Source: Psychroflexus sediminis
GTDB lineage: Bacteria > Bacteroidota > Bacteroidia > Flavobacteriales > Flavobacteriaceae
NCBI RefSeq assembly: GCF_900099815.1
Contig: NZ_FNCW01000007.1
Coordinates: 62,001 to 126,000, forward strand
DNA: 64,000 bases
Direction of reading: 5' to 3'
The stretch's first letter is position 1. Every line of letters starts with the position of its first letter. Below the pieces are notes generated by a model that was not told the origin of the DNA, did no database searches, and saw only the letters and a list, made by a program, of their open reading frames with translations. This document shows, piece by piece, positions 34,400 through 46,105 of this stretch. The position numbers and the translations under genes were made by a program.

Positions 34400-37273
34400 T
34401 TAAAATCGTATATAAGCACTCAAATAATAGGTCGTTCCAAAGCCGAAGAAATAGCGGTTACCGAATAATGCTCCGTTTTCCCTGCTGAGGTCTTCGCCTC
34501 GACTTCTAAAATTGCTGGTTCTGGATTGCTCAAAGCCTCCGGTTTTATACGCCTGATCGAGTATATTATTGATGACTCCGAAAAATCCAATATAATACTG
34601 GTCGACTCTCCAGGACTTCCCGGCAATGACGTTGACAAGCCTATACGCCTCAAACCGTTCTTGTTTTAAAATTTCGCCTGCCAGCTCTTCATCGTAGTCG
34701 TTATAGATAATCCCGTCGGTATCCAGGGCAAAATTATCTGATCTTAACAAGGCCCCTGGACTTATAAAAGCGTGAGAAAAGTGATTGAGGGTCACGCCAA
34801 GATTCCAGTAGCTGGGATCTCTGTATTCAAATCCTACTTGAAACACACGCTCTGGTCCTCCCGGAACTCTCAGGCCTTTCATGTCTGTTTTTCCGTCCCC
34901 AAACCTCAGCTGCATATCCGGAAAGTTTTGACTGGTCAAATAAAGCTCTGGATTGGAAGTATAGACATACTGCCCGAATGAACCCGCCGTTTTGAGTTTT
35001 AAAGTTGGTAAAACCTGGGCTTCCACACCAAACTCAAGCCCGTAATGCAACCTGTCCATCCCCGTCATCACTTCCTGTACAAAGGCATTGTTTTGATTAT
35101 TGGCCGAGGGCAGGCCTGTCAGCTCCTCCGTATAATAAAAGCCTACACTGGTTTCATCCTGAAAGCTGGCGTAAAAGCCCGTAAGACGGGCGCTTAAAAC
35201 GGGGGACTTATAGATATAACTAAGATCTGCTGACTGGATTTTCACTTCTGAAATACCGTCCACCGTATCCCCGTTTTGCCTGGCATTGCTATAAGAATTT
35301 CGGAGGTTTGGTGCGTTCTGGAAATAGGCTGCATTTAAGGTGAATATATGACGCCCGGACCATCTGTATGTCGATCCTGCCTTAAGCGCATAGGTGGTAA
35401 AATCCAGTTTTTCTCCAGGCCCAAAAGACCTGTCCCCCGGGAAAAATCCATTCTCATAAAGTCCTGTGCGCTGGTAGCTTGTTTTCCCAAAACTCAGACC
35501 CGTATAAACGTCAAGTCTTCTAAATTGAAACTGTACCTGAGCAAAGGCATCCATGACTTCAGCATGGATTTTGTAATTGTATTTATAGCGGTCTCCCACC
35601 TGCACCTTCCGGTTGGGAGTTCTTAAGTTGGATTGGGCCAAATCTGACCCCAAACCTGAGAGTAAATCTGTTTCCTCCGCAAAGAAGTCGACATCAAGAA
35701 AGCGTTCTCCACCAAGAAGATCTTCCATCTGGGCAAAGTTTTCGCTTTCCAGACTTCTGTAGTTGAGTCGGGTATTGATGGTGATATTGTCTTTTACTTT
35801 ATAATCTAAAATCGAGTTAGCCAAAAACATTTTATCCTCTACCCTATCAGACTGAAGCGCATAGGTAGAATTCCCACCTCTGGACTGATTTAAGTAGTTG
35901 GCAAAATAAAGTTCCGTCCAGGGGAACTGCCCGTCCGCCTGAAATTCTCTTTGAGCCAGATAGGCACTTTGATAATCGAAGGGTGAAGGATTTGGGTTTC
36001 TCAAATAATAACTCGGCAAGTTTTGATAATAAATGGGTGACGGATTTCGGGCGCCTCCCAGGAAAACCTGTTCCCCGGTAGCCGGGTCTTCAAAAAGCCG
36101 TGTTCCTCCATTATCGATTCTGGTTGTGGAAGAGAAGCCAAACTGGTAACCGATATTGGTATTGAGCGTAAGCCTGTCGCTTATATCCCAGTAATGGTTC
36201 AGCATCAAAACAGGTTCCTCGGTTTTTCGGATTCTGGAATTCCTTTGAACGCCGTTCAACAGCCCCCAGTTCGGGTTGTATTCAATGCCTTTTAAATCCA
36301 CGACCTCCTGAGTGACCGGGGTACCCATCCCTCGTCGGTTGGGCGCATAAAACCCGGTAAAGTTTAAACTGTGTTTATCGGTGATGCGTTTTTCTACGGA
36401 AAGTGCTATGGAATTGGCATCGTACAGGGTTCCTTCTCTAAAGCCTTCTTCGCCAAACCGCCTGGATAACAGCAACGAATACGACCACCCGCCATTCATC
36501 AGGCCAGTATTATAACTTGCCATGACCCTGCCCTGGTAGCTCCTGTTGGAACTCGCATAGGACACACGGCCGCCTTTTCGCATTTTGGAAGCTCTCATGA
36601 TAATGTTGGACACCCCGGCTACATCTCCTATGGTATAATCGCTTGCGGATGTACTCATCGAAAACACCCGATTCCTCTGCACGTCGTTAAGTCCTCCCCA
36701 GTTGGCCCAGTTGGGTCTTCCGGTGAATTGTTTGTTCATTTCAATACCATTGATCAGGAGTTTCCCGCTGGCATTATCCAGACCTCGCGGGTTAAAAAAG
36801 GCGGCGCTGAAATCGAAAGCGGCCGCCCGTAAATACGTATCCTGAGATGCCGCCAGAAGACCTGAAATATTGAAAGAAGAGGCATCTTCTCCGTCGAGTT
36901 CATCTTCAGACAAAGAAATGGTTCCTATTTGCCGGTTGACTTCACTGATATCGACTTCCAGAAACAACTCGCCAAGATTGAGTATTTGTCCCTGTTCAAT
37001 AATCACCGGATACCGCTTTGACTCGTAATTGTTTCGCTGGACTCCTAAAATTTGTTCTCCCAAGGGCAATTCCTGGTTGACAAAGGAAAATTTACCCTGC
37101 GCATCGGTAAGGACTTCAATCCCGGTTCCTCCTATAGAAATCCGGGTTCCCGGAAGTGGCTCTTCGGTATCTATATCTAAGATGATCCCAACAATATCTG
37201 TGGTTTGAGCATAAAACTCAAAGCTAATTAGCATCGACACTAATATCACAAATATTTGCCCAAACCTTATCAT
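34400..37273 (-). CDS. TonB-dependent receptor with CarboxypepD_reg domain (partner of DUF5689)
   Basis: This 957-residue outer-membrane receptor has a signal peptide (to FYAQ, about residue 23), a carboxypeptidase regulatory-like beta-sandwich (24-110; VGIILDIDTEEPLPGTRISIGG) and a plug domain (about 135-230; FNPRGLDNASGKLLINGIEMNK). A long beta-barrel follows, ending in a C-terminal aromatic residue (YYLSAYIRF). It is co-transcribed with the DUF5689 lipoprotein 19 bp downstream and divergent from a lipoprotein nuclease. The group suggests uptake of products from nucleic acids or other phosphodiesters, which is inference. Confidence 0.93.
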   Translation of the reverse strand: MIRFGQIFVILVSMLISFEFYAQTTDIVGIILDIDTEEPLPGTRISIGGTGIEVLTDAQGKFSFVNQELPLGEQILGVQRNNYESKRYPVIIEQGQILNLGELFLEVDISEVNRQIGTISLSEDELDGEDASSFNISGLLAASQDTYLRAAAFDFSAAFFNPRGLDNASGKLLINGIEMNKQFTGRPNWANWGGLNDVQRNRVFSMSTSASDYTIGDVAGVSNIIMRASKMRKGGRVSYASSNRSYQGRVMASYNTGLMNGGWSYSLLLSRRFGEEGFREGTLYDANSIALSVEKRITDKHSLNFTGFYAPNRRGMGTPVTQEVVDLKGIEYNPNWGLLNGVQRNSRIRKTEEPVLMLNHYWDISDRLTLNTNIGYQFGFSSTTRIDNGGTRLFEDPATGEQVFLGGARNPSPIYYQNLPSYYLRNPNPSPFDYQSAYLAQREFQADGQFPWTELYFANYLNQSRGGNSTYALQSDRVEDKMFLANSILDYKVKDNITINTRLNYRSLESENFAQMEDLLGGERFLDVDFFAEETDLLSGLGSDLAQSNLRTPNRKVQVGDRYKYNYKIHAEVMDAFAQVQFQFRRLDVYTGLSFGKTSYQRTGLYENGFFPGDRSFGPGEKLDFTTYALKAGSTYRWSGRHIFTLNAAYFQNAPNLRNSYSNARQNGDTVDGISEVKIQSADLSYIYKSPVLSARLTGFYASFQDETSVGFYYTEELTGLPSANNQNNAFVQEVMTGMDRLHYGLEFGVEAQVLPTLKLKTAGSFGQYVYTSNPELYLTSQNFPDMQLRFGDGKTDMKGLRVPGGPERVFQVGFEYRDPSYWNLGVTLNHFSHAFISPGALLRSDNFALDTDGIIYNDYDEELAGEILKQERFEAYRLVNVIAGKSWRVDQYYIGFFGVINNILDQAYKTGGFEQSRTSNFRSRGEDLSRENGALFGNRYFFGFGTTYYLSAYIRF

Positions 37274-38793: not shown

Positions 38794-38865
38794 GGCTCCG
38801 TAGTTCAATGGATAGAACAAAAGTTTCCTAAACTTTAGATCTAAGTTCGATTCTTAGCGGAGCTA
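38794..38865 (+). tRNA. tRNA-Arg (anticodon CCT)
   Basis: All arms can be folded by eye. The acceptor stem is GGCTCCG with CGGAGCT (one G-T pair), the anticodon stem is AAAGT/ACTTT around loop TTCCTAA with anticodon CCT at 38827-38829, and the T arm is CTAAG-TTCGATT-CTTAG. The CCA end is not encoded (A, then CTA). It reads AGG arginine codons. It stands at the left edge of a more A+T-rich accessory stretch. Confidence 0.94.
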
Positions 38866-38886
38866 CTATTGATTTAGGTGCTGAAC

Positions 38887-41520
38887 TTAAAACCTAAACT
38901 TCACATACCCTACAAAAAAACGGGGGACAGCTCTATACACCAAATCTCCTCTTTGAAAGTTCGTGATGGAACTAAAGGTATAATTCTTTGTATTGAATAT
39001 ATTCTGAGCATCGATTCCAAATACATAAGATTTTTGCTTCGGTCGATATTCTAAATTAAAGCTACTGGTTTGATAAACTTCAGAATTCACATCATAAATT
39101 TCATTCTTGAAATTCCCGAAAAGCCTATCGTAGAGTTTCAGGACAGTCTCTAGTTTAGCATTATAAATGTCATTAGCATTTGAAGAGTTTCCAATACCTC
39201 CAGAATTAGAATTTAAACTTCCAGAAAACTTAAAATTTAAGATTCCATCCCAATACGTTGTCCCTCGGAAATAGTAATTATCACTCTCATTGGTCACTTT
39301 AAATAATTCATCATTCAAAACAAACGGATTTTCAAATCTGGTTTTGGTATACCCCAGCTTCAATGTGGCATCTATAAACTTTAAAAACGTGGTAAAACCA
39401 AGTCTTCCAGTCAATAAACTTCCTCCAGGTATAAATTGGCGTTGTGATAAACTGAGTCTTTCACTTAGCAGTTTATCGGCAGATAACTGTTGTTCATAAT
39501 CTGAATAAGATATACCAGCCTCAATAAGAATTCGTTTTTTAGGTTTTGAAAAGATATAATTGAATGAATATTGGTTTCTAGTCAATTGCTCAAGCCTATT
39601 GACACCCAGAACTAAGCTTCTATAATCTTGCACAATAAAATTCTGGTTAAGGTCGGTTAAACTTGGAAGCTCATTAATTCGTTTGTAACGCAAAGAAAAA
39701 CTGCCAACTTTTGTTTTTCTAAGACGAAGAGTAACATTAGGATTAAGAAAAAGAAAACTTCTGGAATCCACATTTGTTCGCATGTTCAAGTTAGACAATT
39801 CTACATCCGCTTCAGCAATCAATCGATCGGGAATAAAATGGTATTGTGTTTTAAAATTTACAAAAGATTTGAATCTTGCTTCTGAATTTGATCCTGCTAG
39901 ACTATCGATTTCAGAAGAACCTAAGCCATTTTCTAGGTCTAAAGCGCTGTAATTAAACTCTCGTTCTTGATTTAAAACCCCTAGCTTTACAGCAAAACTG
40001 AGTTCGTTAAACTGAAAAATGGAACTGCCTTCCAAACCTTGATAAACCCTATTGTCTTTTATTTTGGTTTGAAGTTGGTTGGAATTCTCTTCTTCAGCAA
40101 TGGTGTTTGGTGAGATATTGAATTTTTGCCGATCTTGATTAAAACCCATAAACCCGTAAAAGCTTAGCGCTCCGTTCTTGATTTTCTTGGTGAGATGAAT
40201 ATTGGTTGATAAACTTAAGTTGCGCTCATCCAAAACCTGAGCAATGCTTTCATTAGAATTAAAAAGCAACTCATGACTCACATCAGAATTGGTCGCTGAC
40301 ACATCGGTTTGAAACGTGATGAAATGGTCTTCATCTATAGAATGTTTAATTTCAAAATCATTCTTTAGATTTAAGTTTTGGGTGTCAAAGGCATTATCTT
40401 CCTGAAAATCAATATCACCATCTGGCAGAAAATAAGAAACCCTATTCCTATAATCACTGTTCAGCTGATCTGTGGTGACAAACAAAGAATTCCTTAGCTT
40501 GCTCTCGCCCCAAATGGTTTTATTAGCTAATAAATTGTTGGATAGACTTTGGTTCTCGACATAAAACTTATCGTCGATTAATATAGAGCTTGTCCTCAAG
40601 TTCAGATATGAGTTTTGATCCAGGCTGAAGTTTTCATCAAAATCATTGAACCCCATTTGCTGATATACATAATTATCTAACTGTTCTCCAGCAGGCTTAC
40701 CTATGGAGTTGAGGTTTCCTAAATCCAGAAACTTGATTTCTGGCCTAATTAATCCAAGGTTAAGATCCGCTTCATAGCGGCTTTCATTTCCTAATCCAGC
40801 TTTAGCAGCTCCAAACCAAATAGATTTGGCTTTGTCTTTTAGCTTTAAGTTGAGCACCACGGTTTCGCTATCCAGAAATTGTTTCAAGACTGGATTTTCA
40901 CTATAGTTGTTGATGACTTCCACTTTGCTTAGCACGTCGGCATCCAGATTTTTGGAAATCACTTTGTAATTTCTATCGGCAAGATCATCTCCCTCTATCA
41001 GTATTTTTTGAATATTCTTGCCTTGGGCTTTGATGTTCCCATCCTCATCAATTTCAATACCCGGCAAATTTTGTAAAACATCTTCCACGGTTTGCTCCGT
41101 CTGATCTGTGAAAGCAGATACCCGATACGCTACAGTATCTCTATTGACTTTTATTTTTTCTTCAGTTTCCAGAACGACTGTATTGAGTTGCTCTACTTTA
41201 GGTATGAGTTCAAAATCTTGATTGATAGTAGACTTAGTATTAGGAATAATGATTTCCTGCGACTCATAACCAAAACTACTCACTTTGACGTAAAGTGAAT
41301 CAGCCTTTGAGTCTACTGCTAATTCATACAGTCCTTCTTCTTTAGAATAAGTGTAATCTAAAATAGTTTTGGTGGGTGAACTTATAACGATACTAGATCC
41401 TTCTAGCGGTATCTTAGTTTCCTTTTCTAGGATTTGACCTTTTATTTTAAACTCTTGGGCATAACTTATAGCAGATACAATAAAGCAAACAAGAAGAAGG
41501 ACAAAACGAAAGATTTTCAA
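38887..41520 (-). CDS. TonB-dependent receptor-like beta-barrel protein of the GLPGLI locus
   Basis: This 877-residue outer-membrane protein has a signal peptide (to ISYAQ, residue 22) and a carboxypeptidase regulatory-like domain (24-110; KIKGQILEKETKIPLEGSSIVI). A plug-like domain follows (about 125-225; TVEDVLQNLPGIEIDEDGNIKAQGKNIQKILIEGDD), then a large beta-barrel ending in aromatic FRF. The start codon is TTG at 41520, because no ATG would keep the signal peptide. It is the last gene of a four-gene co-directional set (peptide, two GLPGLI proteins, receptor), with 37 bp to the preceding gene. It may export or import a product made with those proteins. Confidence 0.9.
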   Translation of the reverse strand: MKIFRFVLLLVCFIVSAISYAQEFKIKGQILEKETKIPLEGSSIVISSPTKTILDYTYSKEEGLYELAVDSKADSLYVKVSSFGYESQEIIIPNTKSTINQDFELIPKVEQLNTVVLETEEKIKVNRDTVAYRVSAFTDQTEQTVEDVLQNLPGIEIDEDGNIKAQGKNIQKILIEGDDLADRNYKVISKNLDADVLSKVEVINNYSENPVLKQFLDSETVVLNLKLKDKAKSIWFGAAKAGLGNESRYEADLNLGLIRPEIKFLDLGNLNSIGKPAGEQLDNYVYQQMGFNDFDENFSLDQNSYLNLRTSSILIDDKFYVENQSLSNNLLANKTIWGESKLRNSLFVTTDQLNSDYRNRVSYFLPDGDIDFQEDNAFDTQNLNLKNDFEIKHSIDEDHFITFQTDVSATNSDVSHELLFNSNESIAQVLDERNLSLSTNIHLTKKIKNGALSFYGFMGFNQDRQKFNISPNTIAEEENSNQLQTKIKDNRVYQGLEGSSIFQFNELSFAVKLGVLNQEREFNYSALDLENGLGSSEIDSLAGSNSEARFKSFVNFKTQYHFIPDRLIAEADVELSNLNMRTNVDSRSFLFLNPNVTLRLRKTKVGSFSLRYKRINELPSLTDLNQNFIVQDYRSLVLGVNRLEQLTRNQYSFNYIFSKPKKRILIEAGISYSDYEQQLSADKLLSERLSLSQRQFIPGGSLLTGRLGFTTFLKFIDATLKLGYTKTRFENPFVLNDELFKVTNESDNYYFRGTTYWDGILNFKFSGSLNSNSGGIGNSSNANDIYNAKLETVLKLYDRLFGNFKNEIYDVNSEVYQTSSFNLEYRPKQKSYVFGIDAQNIFNTKNYTFSSITNFQRGDLVYRAVPRFFVGYVKFRF

Positions 41521-41557
41521 GTAATTGGATTTTGATTATTAAGTTAGTTAGCTAATA

Positions 41558-42346
41558 TTATTCCTTAATTTCATAGACTTCTATATAACTATCTGTTTTC
41601 AAAACCTTTGATTCTGAACCAGATACTCCCATATTTTCTGCAATCACCCTACCACCATATCTTGCATCAATAAAAGATTTGATTTGCCTTTCTTTAAGTT
41701 CTTCAAATGAAATCCAGGAAGAGTTCGGATTGTCTATAGGTTTCAGGAGGTAAGAATTCTCAGTTGGGTACTCTATGTTTTTAAAATACCAGTAGATTTC
41801 TTTATCAGTATCATAAGCTTCCAAGATTAAACCTGGTAAGCCTACTAACTTCCATGGGCCGTAGGGCAGAGGAATTTCTGATGTAAACCAAGCGGTATAA
41901 TCTCGCCCTCTAAAATGAGCCGTTGCTTTTTGGACTTCATAGGTTCCAATTTTTTTTGTTTCATCTGTGATGTCCCATGATATATCTATGGTCTTATCCT
42001 TGACATATCGAAATCCTAAGTCTCGAGAATATAAAACCTTTTCTTTAAGATTGTAATAGTATTGAAAGCCTTCAGGATTAGTCACAACAGTAATAGAAAA
42101 GCCTTGTTCAGGAGAAGCTTGATATGATTTTTGCTCGCGGATATGCCCTCCCTCTAAGGAATCTTTTCTTGTCACATAAAGAGAATTAATTTTATCAAAC
42201 ACTAGCATGGCCTTATAATCTGGTCCAATAGGAGCTCCCATTTCCATACTTTGAACTTCACCGTAGTTTACGATGCCTGTTTGGGCGTTAATGTTATGAC
42301 AGAACAACACTGCACTTGAAACTATAAGTAGAATTAAAGCTTTCAT
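41558..42346 (-). CDS. GLPGLI family secreted protein (copy 2)
   Basis: This 262-residue secreted protein has a signal peptide ending at NINAQ (residue 22) and the family motif GLPGLI in YGPWKLVGLPGLILEAYDT at about residues 160-178. It is a close tandem paralogue of the next gene upstream; long stretches are identical (for example SLYVTRKDSLEGGHIREQKSY). GLPGLI proteins have no established function to my knowledge, and they commonly sit beside TonB-type receptors in Bacteroidota. The divergence is highest near residues 95-110 and at the C-terminus. Confidence 0.92.
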   Translation of the reverse strand: MKALILLIVSSAVLFCHNINAQTGIVNYGEVQSMEMGAPIGPDYKAMLVFDKINSLYVTRKDSLEGGHIREQKSYQASPEQGFSITVVTNPEGFQYYYNLKEKVLYSRDLGFRYVKDKTIDISWDITDETKKIGTYEVQKATAHFRGRDYTAWFTSEIPLPYGPWKLVGLPGLILEAYDTDKEIYWYFKNIEYPTENSYLLKPIDNPNSSWISFEELKERQIKSFIDARYGGRVIAENMGVSGSESKVLKTDSYIEVYEIKE

Positions 42347-42428
42347 AAAATAGATTTTACATAAAGCTAATAATAAACTAAATACATAGTTTAATTGTTT
42401 TAGGCTTTAACATATTAAACTTTATTGA

Positions 42429-43208
42429 CTACTTTTTTTTGATTTCAAAAACTTCTATAAAATAATTTGTTTTTAAAATTTTCGATTCTCCGCTCGATAT
42501 ACCTATATTTTCTGCAACCATTCTTCCTCCCATTCTAGCATCAAGAAAGGATTTAATTTGGTTTTCTTTAAAGCTTTCAAATGATATCCAAGATGAATTT
42601 GGGTTGTCTATTGGTTGAAGCAAATGAGAGTGTTTAGTAGGATATTCTATATTTTTGAAATACCAGTAGATTTCTTTATTGGTATCATAAGCTTCCAAAA
42701 TTAAACCTGGTAAACCTACTAATTTCCAAGGACCATAAGGTAAGGGAATTTGTGATGTAAACCAAGCTGTGTAATCTCGCCCTCTAAAGTGAGCGGTTGC
42801 TTTTTGAACTTTATAAATCCCTATCATTTTGGTTTCTTTTTGTATATCCCAAGGAATATTTATTGTCGTATCCTTAACGTATTGAAACCCTAAATCTCGA
42901 GAATATAAAATCTTCTTTTTTGGCTTATAATAATATTGAAAGCCATCAGGATTGGTAACAACTGTCATATAATGACCATTACCAGAACTATTAAAATATG
43001 ATTTTTGTTCACGAATATGTCCTCCTTCTAAAGAGTCTTTTCTTGTCACATATAGAGAGTTATCTTTATTAAACACCAACATGGCTTTATAATCTGGTCC
43101 AATAGATTCTCCCATTCTCATACTTTGGATTTCGCCATAATTGACTATACCAGTTTGGGATAAAACATTTAGACTAGTTAAACAGATAAAAATTAAAAAA
43201 TATTTCAT
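42429..43208 (-). CDS. GLPGLI family secreted protein (copy 1)
   Basis: This is the first of two tandem GLPGLI proteins, 259 residues, with a signal peptide (to NVLSQ, residue 18) and the motif YGPWKLVGLPGLILEAYDT. It starts 50 bp after the small cysteine-rich peptide gene, and the gap contains a perfect 9-bp hairpin. It is separated by 82 bp from copy 2. The base composition of this pair is visibly more A+T-rich than dxs or the ATP synthase genes. Duplication within the locus could serve two related substrates. Confidence 0.92.
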   Translation of the reverse strand: MKYFLIFICLTSLNVLSQTGIVNYGEIQSMRMGESIGPDYKAMLVFNKDNSLYVTRKDSLEGGHIREQKSYFNSSGNGHYMTVVTNPDGFQYYYKPKKKILYSRDLGFQYVKDTTINIPWDIQKETKMIGIYKVQKATAHFRGRDYTAWFTSQIPLPYGPWKLVGLPGLILEAYDTNKEIYWYFKNIEYPTKHSHLLQPIDNPNSSWISFESFKENQIKSFLDARMGGRMVAENIGISSGESKILKTNYFIEVFEIKKK

Positions 43209-43222
43209 ATTACTAAGATTAA

Positions 43223-43245
43223 GGCTGGAGTCTCAAACTCCAGCC
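43223..43245 (-). promoter_or_regulatory. Intercistronic hairpin between the peptide gene and GLPGLI copy 1
   Basis: A perfect 9-bp stem (GGCTGGAGT / ACTCCAGCC) with a five-base loop lies 14 bp after the peptide gene stop and 15 bp before the GLPGLI start codon. On the minus strand it is followed by TTAATCTTAG, not a full T run. It could be a weak terminator or a 3' stabiliser giving more peptide message than message for the larger genes, a layout common behind peptide precursor genes. Confidence 0.55.
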
Positions 43246-43258
43246 ATAGTACTAAAAT

Positions 43259-43468
43259 TTACTGACATGAATCTTCAAATTGATCTCGAAGCTCAGCTGC
43301 AAACTCACAGTCTACAGGCATATCATATTCAGGATTACCATCTCCGTCACAATCTACATAAGCCGAGCATTGGTTACCACCTAAAGCTTCAATAGAAGTT
43401 TCTTCAGATGAAATAGAGTTCAGAGTCAATAAGGGTAACATCAAAAATGAAATTAATAAAGTTTTCAT
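43259..43468 (-). CDS. Small secreted cysteine-rich acidic peptide, NVEALA-like
   Basis: This 69-residue peptide has a signal peptide or leader (residues 1-20, MKTLLISFLMLPLLTLNSIS). A short motif SIEALGG (25-31) resembles the NVEALA motif of small Bacteroidota peptides and has a double Gly at its end. The acidic C-terminal part has four cysteines (34, 40, 54, 68). Residues 39-44 (DCDGDG) have the DxDxDG spacing of calcium-binding loops. It is the first gene of the set with two GLPGLI proteins and a TonB-type receptor. I infer a secreted structural or signalling peptide, or a precursor; the family assignment rests on the motif alone. Confidence 0.68.
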   Translation of the reverse strand: MKTLLISFLMLPLLTLNSISSEETSIEALGGNQCSAYVDCDGDGNPEYDMPVDCEFAAELRDQFEDSCQ

Positions 43469-43526
43469 GATATTTAAATTTAAGAATTATATGTTGCAAG
43501 TTTAAATCTTGCCAGATTATTGAACA

Positions 43527-43646
43527 TAGGTCAAAACCTAAGTAAAGATCTCATGAAAAATGAATATACTTGTAGCGTGAGCGAGTATGGATCTTTTCAT
43601 GCTTGGTTTGTGAAATGCTTTTCTTCGGAGAAGCATTTCCTTTTTT
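43527..43646 (+). ncRNA. Candidate structured RNA with UUCG-loop terminator
   Basis: In the 380-bp gap before tadA the plus strand can fold into three parts. First is a small hairpin (TAGGT-CAAA-ACCTA, 43527-43540). Second is a long helix (CATGAAAA 43552-43559 with TTTTCATG 43594-43601) enclosing ATACTTG/CGAGTAT (43566-43572, 43582-43588). Third is a terminator. AAAGATC (43544-43550) can pair instead with GATCTTT (43590-43596), which excludes the long helix. No gene on the plus strand leads into this terminator, which suggests an independent small RNA. The start and promoter are not identified. Confidence 0.4.
43612..43646 (+). terminator. Strong terminator with C(UUCG)G tetraloop, orphan
   Basis: A 12-bp stem (GAAATGCTTTTC / GAGAAGCATTTC, one G-T pair) is closed by the very stable C-TTCG-G loop and followed by C and six T. 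It is clearly directed to the plus strand; the minus strand has no T run. There is no plus-strand gene upstream within several kilobases. Confidence 0.85.
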
Positions 43647-45346: not shown

Positions 45347-46105
45347 TTATTCTATTATTTTGATAATGATAGATAGTGAAAATAATACTCCCACAGGTCG
45401 ACCGCGCTGTTCACCAGGCTTCATGTCTGGCAGCATTTCAACAACTCTTATACCTTCAGCCTCTAATTTTGGGTGAGGAGCCCTGGCAGCAATATCAACG
45501 ATAGATCCTGTATGATCAATCTTAAAGCCTATAAATACGCGATGTGTTCCACTGAGTTTTAAATCGTTCGCGATATCCATATCAAATTTTTCATGCATAA
45601 ATTCATTTACTTTCCGGTTCATGCATTCTTTTCGCTCTTCATTGCTATTCAGGCCCTCACATCCAGGAAACACCGGTACGGTTTCAATCACCGAAAAGGG
45701 CACGTCTTCTATCTCCTCTTCTACATCTTCCACTTCTCCCACGCCCACAATTTCTCCTGTGTTTGAAGCTGCTTTCACTTCTACACTCTCATTTTGGTTG
45801 GTTTCGCTAGATTGTATGTTCACCTCCTGTATGTCTAAATCATTATCAACAATTCTAATAGCCTCCGGAACAGGTGCCGGCGGGGCTGGAGGCGGTGGTG
45901 GTGGAGTATTTTTTATTTCTGTTATAGGTGCAGATTCTTTTTCTATTAAATTAAGATATAAGACTTCTGTTTCGGTGTGTTCATTTCTGTAAGTTTTACG
46001 TTCTATCATTATAAGTGAGAACGAAAGGGATATGATAAGTCCTATTTGAAAAAAGATAAGACTATACCTGGAGAGGTCTTTTTTTGGATTCTTTTTAATT
46101 TTCAT
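45347..46105 (-). CDS. TonB-type energy transducer
   Basis: This 252-residue protein couples the proton-motive force to outer-membrane receptors. A membrane anchor lies at about residues 15-36 (LIFFQIGLIISLSFSLIMIE), followed by a proline-rich periplasmic stretch (PPPPPPAPPAPVPEA, about 68-82) and a TonB C-terminal domain (about 140-252; VIETVPVFPGCEGLNSNEERKECMNRKVNEFM). The cysteine-containing FPGCE form is common in Bacteroidota. No exbBD is adjacent. The gene is enclosed by repeat elements 2 and 3. Confidence 0.9.
   Translation of the reverse strand: MKIKKNPKKDLSRYSLIFFQIGLIISLSFSLIMIERKTYRNEHTETEVLYLNLIEKESAPITEIKNTPPPPPPAPPAPVPEAIRIVDNDLDIQEVNIQSSETNQNESVEVKAASNTGEIVGVGEVEDVEEEIEDVPFSVIETVPVFPGCEGLNSNEERKECMNRKVNEFMHEKFDMDIANDLKLSGTHRVFIGFKIDHTGSIVDIAARAPHPKLEAEGIRVVEMLPDMKPGEQRGRPVGVLFSLSIIIKIIE

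Follow-up and report, generated by a model that had tools for sequence, protein, structure and literature searches.

Within the window analysed here, that is, the whole 64,000-nucleotide stretch of Psychroflexus sediminis DNA, the minus strand carries four co-directional genes, which in order of transcription encode a small secreted peptide (69 aa, 43259..43468), two tandem GLPGLI proteins with signal peptides (259 aa, 42429..43208, and 262 aa, 41558..42346) and a TonB-dependent barrel protein (38887..41520, listed start TTG). The list of open reading frames bears out this right-to-left arrangement at the positions given in an initial annotation of the sequence. A conserved 5' leader lies upstream of the peptide gene (43469..43600, minus strand); across the four loci aligned, each of the six pairs is 89-97% identical over the 125-130 alignment columns adjoining the peptide ATG. 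The gap between the peptide stop and the first GLPGLI start contains an RNA hairpin (GGCTGGAG...CTCCAGCC, 43223..43245, minus strand; z -3.22 against dinucleotide shuffles), and a tRNA-Arg (cct) is encoded on the plus strand at 38794..38866. The same genome holds a second locus of this type, the peptide of which is unrelated to that of the window, and PADLOC returned no defence system match at E up to 0.1.

Both GLPGLI proteins, which are 75% identical to each other, score well above the cut-offs of TIGR01200 (140.7 and 148.9 bits vs 50; E 6e-41 and 1.9e-43 for proteins 1 and 2, respectively) and of Porph_ging, PF09697 (44.9 and 47.6 bits vs 25), in agreement with their original assignment. 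An AlphaFold2 model of GLPGLI protein 2 (pLDDT 87.7) predicts a LolA-like fold, with Foldseek matches to the LolA structures 9c89 (E 3.7e-4) and 2w7q_B (E 6.4e-4). The match is moderate: the TM-score for 2w7q_B is 0.56 when taken over the target length and 0.40 over the query length, and the LolA entries among the first 20 matches score 0.28-0.41 over the query length. A profile search of solved structures gave no sequence match to LolA; the same search linked GLPGLI to PNGase F-II (4r4z, E 2.8e-5; by fold E 1.1e-7). Of 198 Bacteroidota genomes sampled, 59 encode GLPGLI proteins. The open-access literature offered no function for them, a weak negative, with none named in the gene tables and discussion sections available.

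The fourth gene was described earlier as a TonB-type barrel. By sequence, CarbopepD_reg_2 fell just under its cut-off, the Pfam Plug model gave E 0.58 only, and a sequence search found no solved relative. The AlphaFold2 model (pLDDT 88.2, pTM 0.77) is predicted to have a TonB-dependent receptor fold, with an N-terminal carboxypeptidase-regulatory-like domain followed by plug and beta barrel; it gave 197 matches in the PDB at E up to 0.001, and the 50 listed are TonB-dependent receptors. A TonB-box-like stretch was seen by eye between the N-terminal domain and the plug.

The peptide combines a Sec-type signal peptide (approximately residues 1-20) with an acidic mature part (residues 21-69, net charge -13) and has Cys at positions 34, 40, 54 and 68, just as initially described. 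Against the concern, raised at that stage, that it might not be conserved in close relatives, the orthologous loci L045, L046 and L047 keep all four Cys as well as a D/N-rich loop, although the congener L044 has one GLPGLI gene and the barrel without a peptide. With dN/dS of 0.18-0.52 in six pairs, thus below 1 in every one, diversifying selection is unsupported, and at the sequence level the peptide is a conserved gene. By direct search, Pfam and NCBIfam returned nothing for it, and a single-sequence search of 298 other genomes of the family sample gave no convincing match (six weak ones, best E 0.02). NVEALA peptides (PF14055) are small Bacteroidota peptides with a signal-like N-terminus and Cys, and the string SIEALGG had been taken as a likeness to them. 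We rejected membership: a genome-wide search with PF14055 (E up to 10) produced three matches, all of them sub-threshold and all located elsewhere than at the window peptide, and the string is replaced in orthologs by SIEVTAR, SIEVVKQ and SSEEMLG. A double-glycine leader (EALGG) was likewise rejected because the GG is not kept. The D/N-rich loop pattern, which could allow calcium binding, is matched by the window peptide and two orthologs, the only three of 73 surveyed peptides to do so.

The survey of GLPGLI neighbourhoods that the initial annotation proposed found short secreted Cys frames recurring far above controls. In a first set of 88 GLPGLI clusters, most of them selected because they resemble the window, 40 have a short secreted frame with at least two Cys 5' of GLPGLI; the same holds for 7 of 600 control genes, and for 4 of 88 clusters when the antisense strand is scored. 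This set was reduced from 105 by leaving out clusters without room on both sides, and its counts exclude L064, L090 and L101, which are copies of L046, L048 and L053. A second set comprised 60 places hand-picked from a table of GLPGLI genomes without regard to peptides, mostly one or two per genome, of which 58 gave clusters (L224 and L229 gave none). Fetched later and scored with the rule already settled on set 1, on which it had been tuned, it showed such a frame in 9 of 60 (controls 6/348, antisense 0/60), one or two of the nine being doubtful (L227 looks spurious, L230 is doubtful). Judged by shared exact 60-mers, no set 1 locus came back in set 2, and the only near-copies were the exchange pairs themselves, three in number and all in set 1. 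In these counts genes are longest open reading frames, frames above 140 aa are uncounted and signal peptides follow a home-made hydrophobicity rule, which misses peptides with odd starts (L098 and L118, found by eye) and lets a few false ones pass.

A barrel of at least 700 aa lay directly downstream in 76 of 88 clusters of set 1 and 36 of 60 of set 2. The surveyed peptides reach 134 aa, occur in tandem in L102, L111 and L129, have an even number of Cys in 63 of 73 cases and are mostly acidic in their mature part (61/73 net negative, median -5). In L048 and L052 the peptide frame has no in-frame ATG while GLPGLI and barrel are kept. In a large genus (249 genomes), searched twice for close pairs in which swapping might be seen, each search added one GLPGLI relative to the query genome (L233 and L234), both without a visible peptide. 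An alternative is that unrelated envelope genes have come to stand together in a loose operon, the peptide having a job of its own, as might be expected from the 51 of 60 GLPGLI loci of set 2 in which no peptide was detected. GLPGLI does appear to have uses without such a peptide, since 27 of those clusters have a barrel without a detected peptide and 24 have neither. We nevertheless regard a loose operon as very improbable, given the strong same-strand enrichment over antisense, the junction hairpin that accompanies the peptide, and recurrence on many branches of the GLPGLI tree, which has 24 changes of peptide state, at least 11 of them forced by well-supported branches. Recurrence of the arrangement while the peptide is exchanged points to an undescribed peptide-handling system.

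Evidence of exchange comes from sliding identity, run on two of the ten pairs of five orthologous loci and, elsewhere, on the two of five pairs with the highest identity. Between G313 and G319, which come from two species, GLPGLI and barrel are ~99% identical (sliding segments mostly 98-100%) against 75% in the flanks, while the peptide core segment within the block is 52% identical (61/117). By codon number, the equivalent of this 120-bp segment in the window covers approximately codons 14-53, or 43310..43429 on the minus strand, and thus runs from the last residues of the signal peptide through the greater part of the mature peptide; the site equivalent to the tRNA-Arg gene forms the downstream edge of the exchanged block. 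At the sequence level, then, the peptide can differ while GLPGLI and barrel stay ~99% identical, and replacement by recombination would suffice for its divergence. For the pair L061/L056 the exchanged block does not include the divergent peptide, whose divergence is therefore background only; L049/L050, L048/L050 and L062/L058 show ~69-75% identity over long matches and no exchanged block.

A variable short Cys peptide, accompanied by several GLPGLI copies and sometimes lost with GLPGLI kept, could be a bacteriocin-like toxin with GLPGLI as its immunity protein. Consistent with this, GLPGLI diverges along with the peptide between the window and G302, and in two Bacteroidales loci, L106 and L122, the neighbours of GLPGLI include a barrel, a radical-SAM protein and a bacteriocin-type ABC exporter with C39 peptidase, L106 also having a 69-aa double-glycine-leader-like frame with Cys. 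Peptide-specific immunity is, however, hard to reconcile with a GLPGLI 1 body that is 98-100% identical across the G313/G319 peptide change, and the acidity of most mature peptides also argues against a toxin, which we consider quite improbable. Among 159 surveyed loci, C39-type N-termini turned up in a motif scan at L106 and L122 alone, so the Sec-type peptides seem to be without a nearby C39 exporter; the two loci themselves support an independent link of GLPGLI to peptides and slightly strengthen the cargo reading put forward below.

The hairpin between the peptide and GLPGLI genes is a further, frequent companion of the peptide. Scored against mononucleotide shuffles, a hairpin with z < -2 lies before the GLPGLI start in 40 of 51 cases with a peptide gene upstream, in 17 of 55 where GLPGLI comes first and no peptide is present, and in 2 of 33 internal genes. 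Stems of at least 9 bp occur in 28 of 47 peptide-GLPGLI gaps, in 0 of 19 GLPGLI-GLPGLI gaps and in 1 of 21 GLPGLI-barrel gaps; in set 2, stem length makes the hairpin look weaker, with 9 bp or more in 3 of 10 gaps, and z < -2 is seen in 7 of 10. It ends 10-18 nt before the GLPGLI start in 23 of 32 scored cases, 14 nt in the window, and in the ortholog L047 one of its pairs is changed on both sides. No known RNA family scored above the gathering score at the hairpin, the only match being the tRNA. In the window, the hairpin satisfies a loosely defined terminator pattern and may act as a leaky terminator. A canonical intrinsic terminator is disfavoured because the bases after the hairpins of other loci, inspected by eye, are often A-rich and not T-runs, and for the same reason we prefer a role in translation or stability: the hairpin probably sets different levels of peptide and transport genes through mRNA stability or translation. 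In leaders of the CruR/CutF kind, discussed next, the stem-loop is expected to hide the downstream ribosome-binding site; a Shine-Dalgarno site is rarely used at Bacteroidota starts.

The peptide frame could instead be a regulatory leader (uORF). In the available portions of the reports on CruR-BfrG of Bordetella and CutF-CutO of Rhodobacter (PMC9426467, PMC9973294), a short exported Cys protein comes first in the operon, followed by a TonB-dependent transporter gene in the case of CruR and by an intergenic stem-loop in that of CutF, an outline shared by the locus described here. The hairpin also goes with the peptide gene, its spacing to the GLPGLI start varies rather little, and 6 of 73 peptides end in Pro, as do leader families of Bacteroidota that lie upstream of secDF according to the accessible part of another report (PMC10987492). 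The window peptide nevertheless differs from CruR and CutF in having neither CXXC/CXXXC nor RAPP or a proline-rich C-terminus, and across the survey CXXC occurs in 2, CXXXC in 4, RAPP in none and PP within the last 15 residues in 1 of 73 peptides; DUF2946 matched neither the window peptide nor ten others tested. Moreover, in 28 of 32 scored cases the hairpin keeps 8 nt or more away from the start, and the peptides can be long, tandem in some loci, and very different beside near-identical downstream genes. A leader is therefore quite unlikely in our judgement.

Our best reading, held tentatively, is that the peptide is an exchangeable cargo, which GLPGLI conveys to a TonB-powered barrel, with a direction and role that we infer. 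Judging from its sequence, the peptide would be exported by Sec and fold in the periplasm with two disulfides; on its predicted fold, the LolA-like half-barrel of GLPGLI may bind the peptide or a partner in the periplasm and deliver it to the outer membrane; and gene order and fold suggest that the TonB-dependent barrel would move the peptide across, or hold it at, that membrane. If GLPGLI and barrel do bind a peptide that changes while they stay near-identical, their recognition of it should depend on what the peptides have in common (fold, Cys pattern, C-terminus) rather than on the variable segment. Display, maturation or transport, as originally suggested, remains plausible: the joint occurrence recurs and the predicted LolA-like fold fits transport, even though the NVEALA kinship fell away.

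TonB-dependent barrels are importers as a rule, and export would be unusual. The peptide might thus be a secreted scavenger of a metal or nutrient, a public good, with the barrel importing either the peptide in its loaded state or the ligand, for GLPGLI to receive in the periplasm. The nearest folds among the Foldseek matches listed include metal and siderophore receptors, the possible calcium-binding loop would suit such a task, and L044, L048 and L052 look like receivers no longer producing. The metal-receptor matches, however, reflect the common barrel fold and not a ligand, the loop pattern is rare among the peptides surveyed, and a barrel ~99% identical across a peptide change is unlike specific ligand-receptor pairs; we find scavenging unlikely. 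Returning to the cargo reading, outside the cell the peptide would most probably serve to recognise relatives or to compete with them, though this is a guess. The fullest version, a Bacteroidota pathway in which LolA-fold GLPGLI carriers pass exchangeable disulfide peptides to a TonB-powered barrel for export or display, from a hairpin-controlled operon whose peptide is swapped cassette-like between species, the system working outward in recognition or competition, is doubtful as a whole. Even so, GLPGLI is now linked to a peptide, to a transport partner and, by prediction, to a carrier-like fold, which makes its role testable in one operon, and peptides that leave the cell would mean that a major phylum has a new way of secreting or displaying them.

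We found no description of this peptide-GLPGLI-barrel system in the open-access literature, a weak negative, and several known systems resemble parts of it. Bacteroidetocins are, in the sections available, likewise short Bacteroidetes peptides with four (at least two) Cys, but have double-glycine leaders of 15-16 aa and an ABC transporter/peptidase (PMC6671954), in contrast to the Sec-type signals, GLPGLI and barrel found here. Radical-SAM peptide (RiPP) clusters with C39 ABC exporters are combined with GLPGLI and barrel in L106 and L122, whereas the window peptide has a Sec-type signal and no radical-SAM gene, C39 exporter or ABC match occurs among the 14 window proteins run. The N-terminal bowl-like domain of PNGase F-II, matched by GLPGLI in both profile and model, is, as far as the accessible text describes it, part of an N-glycanase and dispensable for its activity (PMC9522356), while GLPGLI stands alone. 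LolA/LppX-like carriers have the predicted fold in common with GLPGLI, which differs from them in its own motif, the adjoining receptor gene and the lack of a sequence match in the solved-structure search.

The four genes of the window's GLPGLI locus lie on the minus strand in the arrangement proposed by the initial annotation: a 69-aa peptide (43259-43468) comes first in transcription order, followed by GLPGLI 1 (42429-43208), GLPGLI 2 (41558-42346) and an 877-aa TonB-type barrel protein (38887-41520), after which comes a plus-strand tRNA-Arg (38794-38866). The family identity of both GLPGLI proteins is secure. Pfam recognised the barrel protein weakly, and the PDB matches listed for its AlphaFold2 model (pLDDT 88.2) were TonB-dependent receptors in 50 of 50 cases. 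The genome comprises 2.97 Mb in 36 contigs, and the nearest named locus is that of Psychroflexus gondwanensis (83% within the GLPGLI match). Upstream of the peptide leader, the plus strand carries a 12-bp inverted repeat with a T-run behind it (43612-43639). The product of the third gene upstream of the peptide (45347-46105) has a Pro-rich stretch and, by eye, a TonB-like C-terminus, with no match to Pfam TonB, and a 957-aa protein encoded at 34400-37273, with a carboxypeptidase-regulatory-like domain and a weak plug match, has no adjoining GLPGLI gene.

As judged from sequence, the window peptide is a real gene. Among the close relatives in which its conservation was examined, three congeners (G302, G313 and G319) have orthologs 64, 63 and 52% identical to it, all retaining the four cysteines, and the synonymous rate exceeds the non-synonymous rate in all six peptide pairs; a fourth congener (G299, locus L044) retains one GLPGLI gene and the barrel and lacks the peptide. 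Across a sample of 299 genomes of the family, its own included, the matches in others were all weak (six genomes, E 0.02-0.08). The peptide has no match in Pfam, NCBIfam or PADLOC. Kinship with NVEALA peptides, suggested earlier from the string SIEALGG, is not borne out: the NVEALA model does not find the peptide, and SIEALGG is unconserved in the orthologs of the three congeners.

The arrangement recurs. On contig 33 of the same genome, a 73-aa secreted frame with two cysteines is found together with three genes of GLPGLI type and a barrel of 893 aa. The neighbourhood survey for short Cys-containing frames that the initial annotation had called for was made in two sets, the first holding 105 clusters at 99 loci from this genome, congeners, near relatives and the named loci closest to the window GLPGLI. 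Where there was room on both sides (88 clusters), a short secreted frame with at least two cysteines stood just upstream of a GLPGLI gene in 40, with a barrel as well in 36 of the 40; control counts were 7 for 600 other genes and, with the antisense strand searched, 4 for 88. Sixty loci from a phylum-wide search, picked blind to peptides (set 2; 60 clusters), gave 9 peptides, one or two of them doubtful, and a barrel beside all 9 (controls, 6/348 and 0/60). Both counts exceed their controls and make the peptide a feature of a subset of GLPGLI loci. When 148 first GLPGLI genes are placed on a tree, the peptide-plus-barrel state takes 24 changes, of which well-supported branches force at least 11, and its clustering exceeds that seen in 500 shuffles; that these genes merely share a loose operon is a very improbable reading. 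Most peptides are acidic (net negative in 61 of 73) and have an even number of cysteines (63 of 73), and of ten searched with Pfam and NCBIfam, none reached the curated cut-off of any family.

Several loci depart from this pattern. Two order-level relatives (G327 and G340) have 12 and 13 GLPGLI matches, and at four of their loci (L174-L177) neither peptide nor barrel was detected. In the variants at L096, L135 and L055, GLPGLI and barrel are preceded by two lipoproteins, one a TolB_like propeller protein (PF15869) and the other small; the small lipoprotein of L135 alone is thioredoxin-like by Pfam, near the cut-off, and L096 and L135 have a frame of 68-74 aa with four cysteines further upstream. 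These three loci may form a link with other peptide loci of Bacteroidota. The peptide frames of L048 and L052 and the first frame of L059 have the usual signal and Cys pattern and no in-frame ATG, and may be non-producer alleles or use rare start codons.

Comparison of closely related loci points to exchange. G313 and G319 are different species whose flanks are ~75% identical. The stretch between the flanks, which begins shortly before the peptide and ends at the position of the tRNA-Arg, averages 95% identity (BLAST), nearly all 120-bp windows of GLPGLI and barrel reaching 97-100%; on this sequence evidence the block is a recent exchange between species. Their leaders and first 13 peptide codons are 94% identical, divergence begins within the signal peptide, the following 120 bp match at 61/117 (52%), and the last codons are alike again. 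The dS values are 0.01 (GLPGLI 1), 0.02 (barrel) and 1.56 (peptide). Between the window and G302, flanks and barrel are ~91-93% identical, the peptide 68% and GLPGLI, of which one copy is absent, ~79%. A second locus (L061 versus L056) shows 100% identity for GLPGLI and the barrel start over ~1.5 kb, against 64-69% for most of the peptide, the exchange here starting downstream of the peptide. A third (L051 versus L052) has a GLPGLI gene with 96-100% identity outside its first 100 bp, and the frames at the peptide place are at the level of unrelated sequences (45-48%); L052, whose peptide frame is one of those without an in-frame ATG, has two more GLPGLI genes. Differing peptides beside near-identical genes imply either that GLPGLI and barrel serve various peptides or that the peptide needs no match.

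A stable hairpin (43223-43245; z -3.22, dinucleotide shuffles) separates the peptide stop from the GLPGLI start in the window, and survey z-scores, for gaps and GLPGLI starts alike, were obtained with mononucleotide shuffles. Peptide-GLPGLI gaps in set 1 had a stem of 9 bp or more in 28/47 and z < -2 in 34/47; the corresponding counts were 0/19 and 3/19 for GLPGLI-GLPGLI, 1/21 and 1/21 for GLPGLI-barrel, 17/126 and 35/126 for other codirectional, and 12/84 and 25/84 for convergent gaps. Set 2 gave 3/10 and 7/10 at peptide-GLPGLI gaps, and 0 and 0/5, 3 and 4/26, and 8 and 19/79 at comparison gaps. Upstream of GLPGLI starts, z < -2 was found in 40/51 cases with a peptide, 17/55 first genes without one and 2/33 internal genes (set 2: 7/9, 4/51 and 3/10). 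Hairpin sequence varies from locus to locus, and one pair among orthologs is altered on both sides. Of 32 hairpins whose position was scored, 28 end 8 nt or more ahead of the start (23 of them by 10-18 nt), and in the remaining four the start is an uncertain TTG. With such regular spacing, the hairpin seems positioned relative to the GLPGLI start, and the data point to a role in translation or mRNA stability.

The GLPGLI model (pLDDT 87.7) matches the PNGase F-II N-terminal domain, with weaker matches to LolA carriers, VioE and MucB; LolA carries lipoproteins through the periplasm. Taken with the gene order, in which a Sec-type peptide precedes GLPGLI and a TonB-type barrel follows it, these matches suggest, as the simplest reading, though one with somewhat less than even odds, that a GLPGLI carrier would handle the peptide between the two membranes of the envelope. 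A motif scan of 159 loci placed a C39-peptidase ABC exporter near GLPGLI in two, both from Bacteroidales and both with GLPGLI lying within a radical-SAM peptide cluster. L122 (Muribaculaceae) has a radical-SAM/SPASM protein, barrel, C39 exporter and GLPGLI; at L106 (Culturomica) there are a 69-aa frame (2482-2691; GG-leader-like, with a GG motif and three cysteines), a radical-SAM protein, a barrel, GLPGLI, another frame of barrel size and the exporter. Pfam cut-offs were passed for Radical_SAM, Peptidase_C39 and ABC_tran, and among the NCBIfam matches listed the general SPASM domain model alone, and no equivalog, reached its cut-off. GLPGLI and barrel thus accompany two dissimilar kinds of exported peptide, which favours peptide handling over a leader peptide of the CruR/CutF kind. 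The latter shares its outline with our loci, but the motifs described for CruR/CutF (PMC9426467, PMC9973294) are largely missing from the peptides, and the leader reading is now quite unlikely. The same two loci shifted the odds slightly towards peptide handling, slightly away from a secreted scavenger imported by the barrel, which is unlikely, and slightly towards a bacteriocin with GLPGLI as its immunity protein, which is still distinctly improbable.

In the open-access literature searched, no description of a peptide-GLPGLI-barrel system was found, and the function of the whole system is put forward here as an unproven proposal from sequence and models. Each component comes from a known family, but the way they are combined, the hairpin at the junction and the swapping of peptides match none of the described kinds of system compared here.
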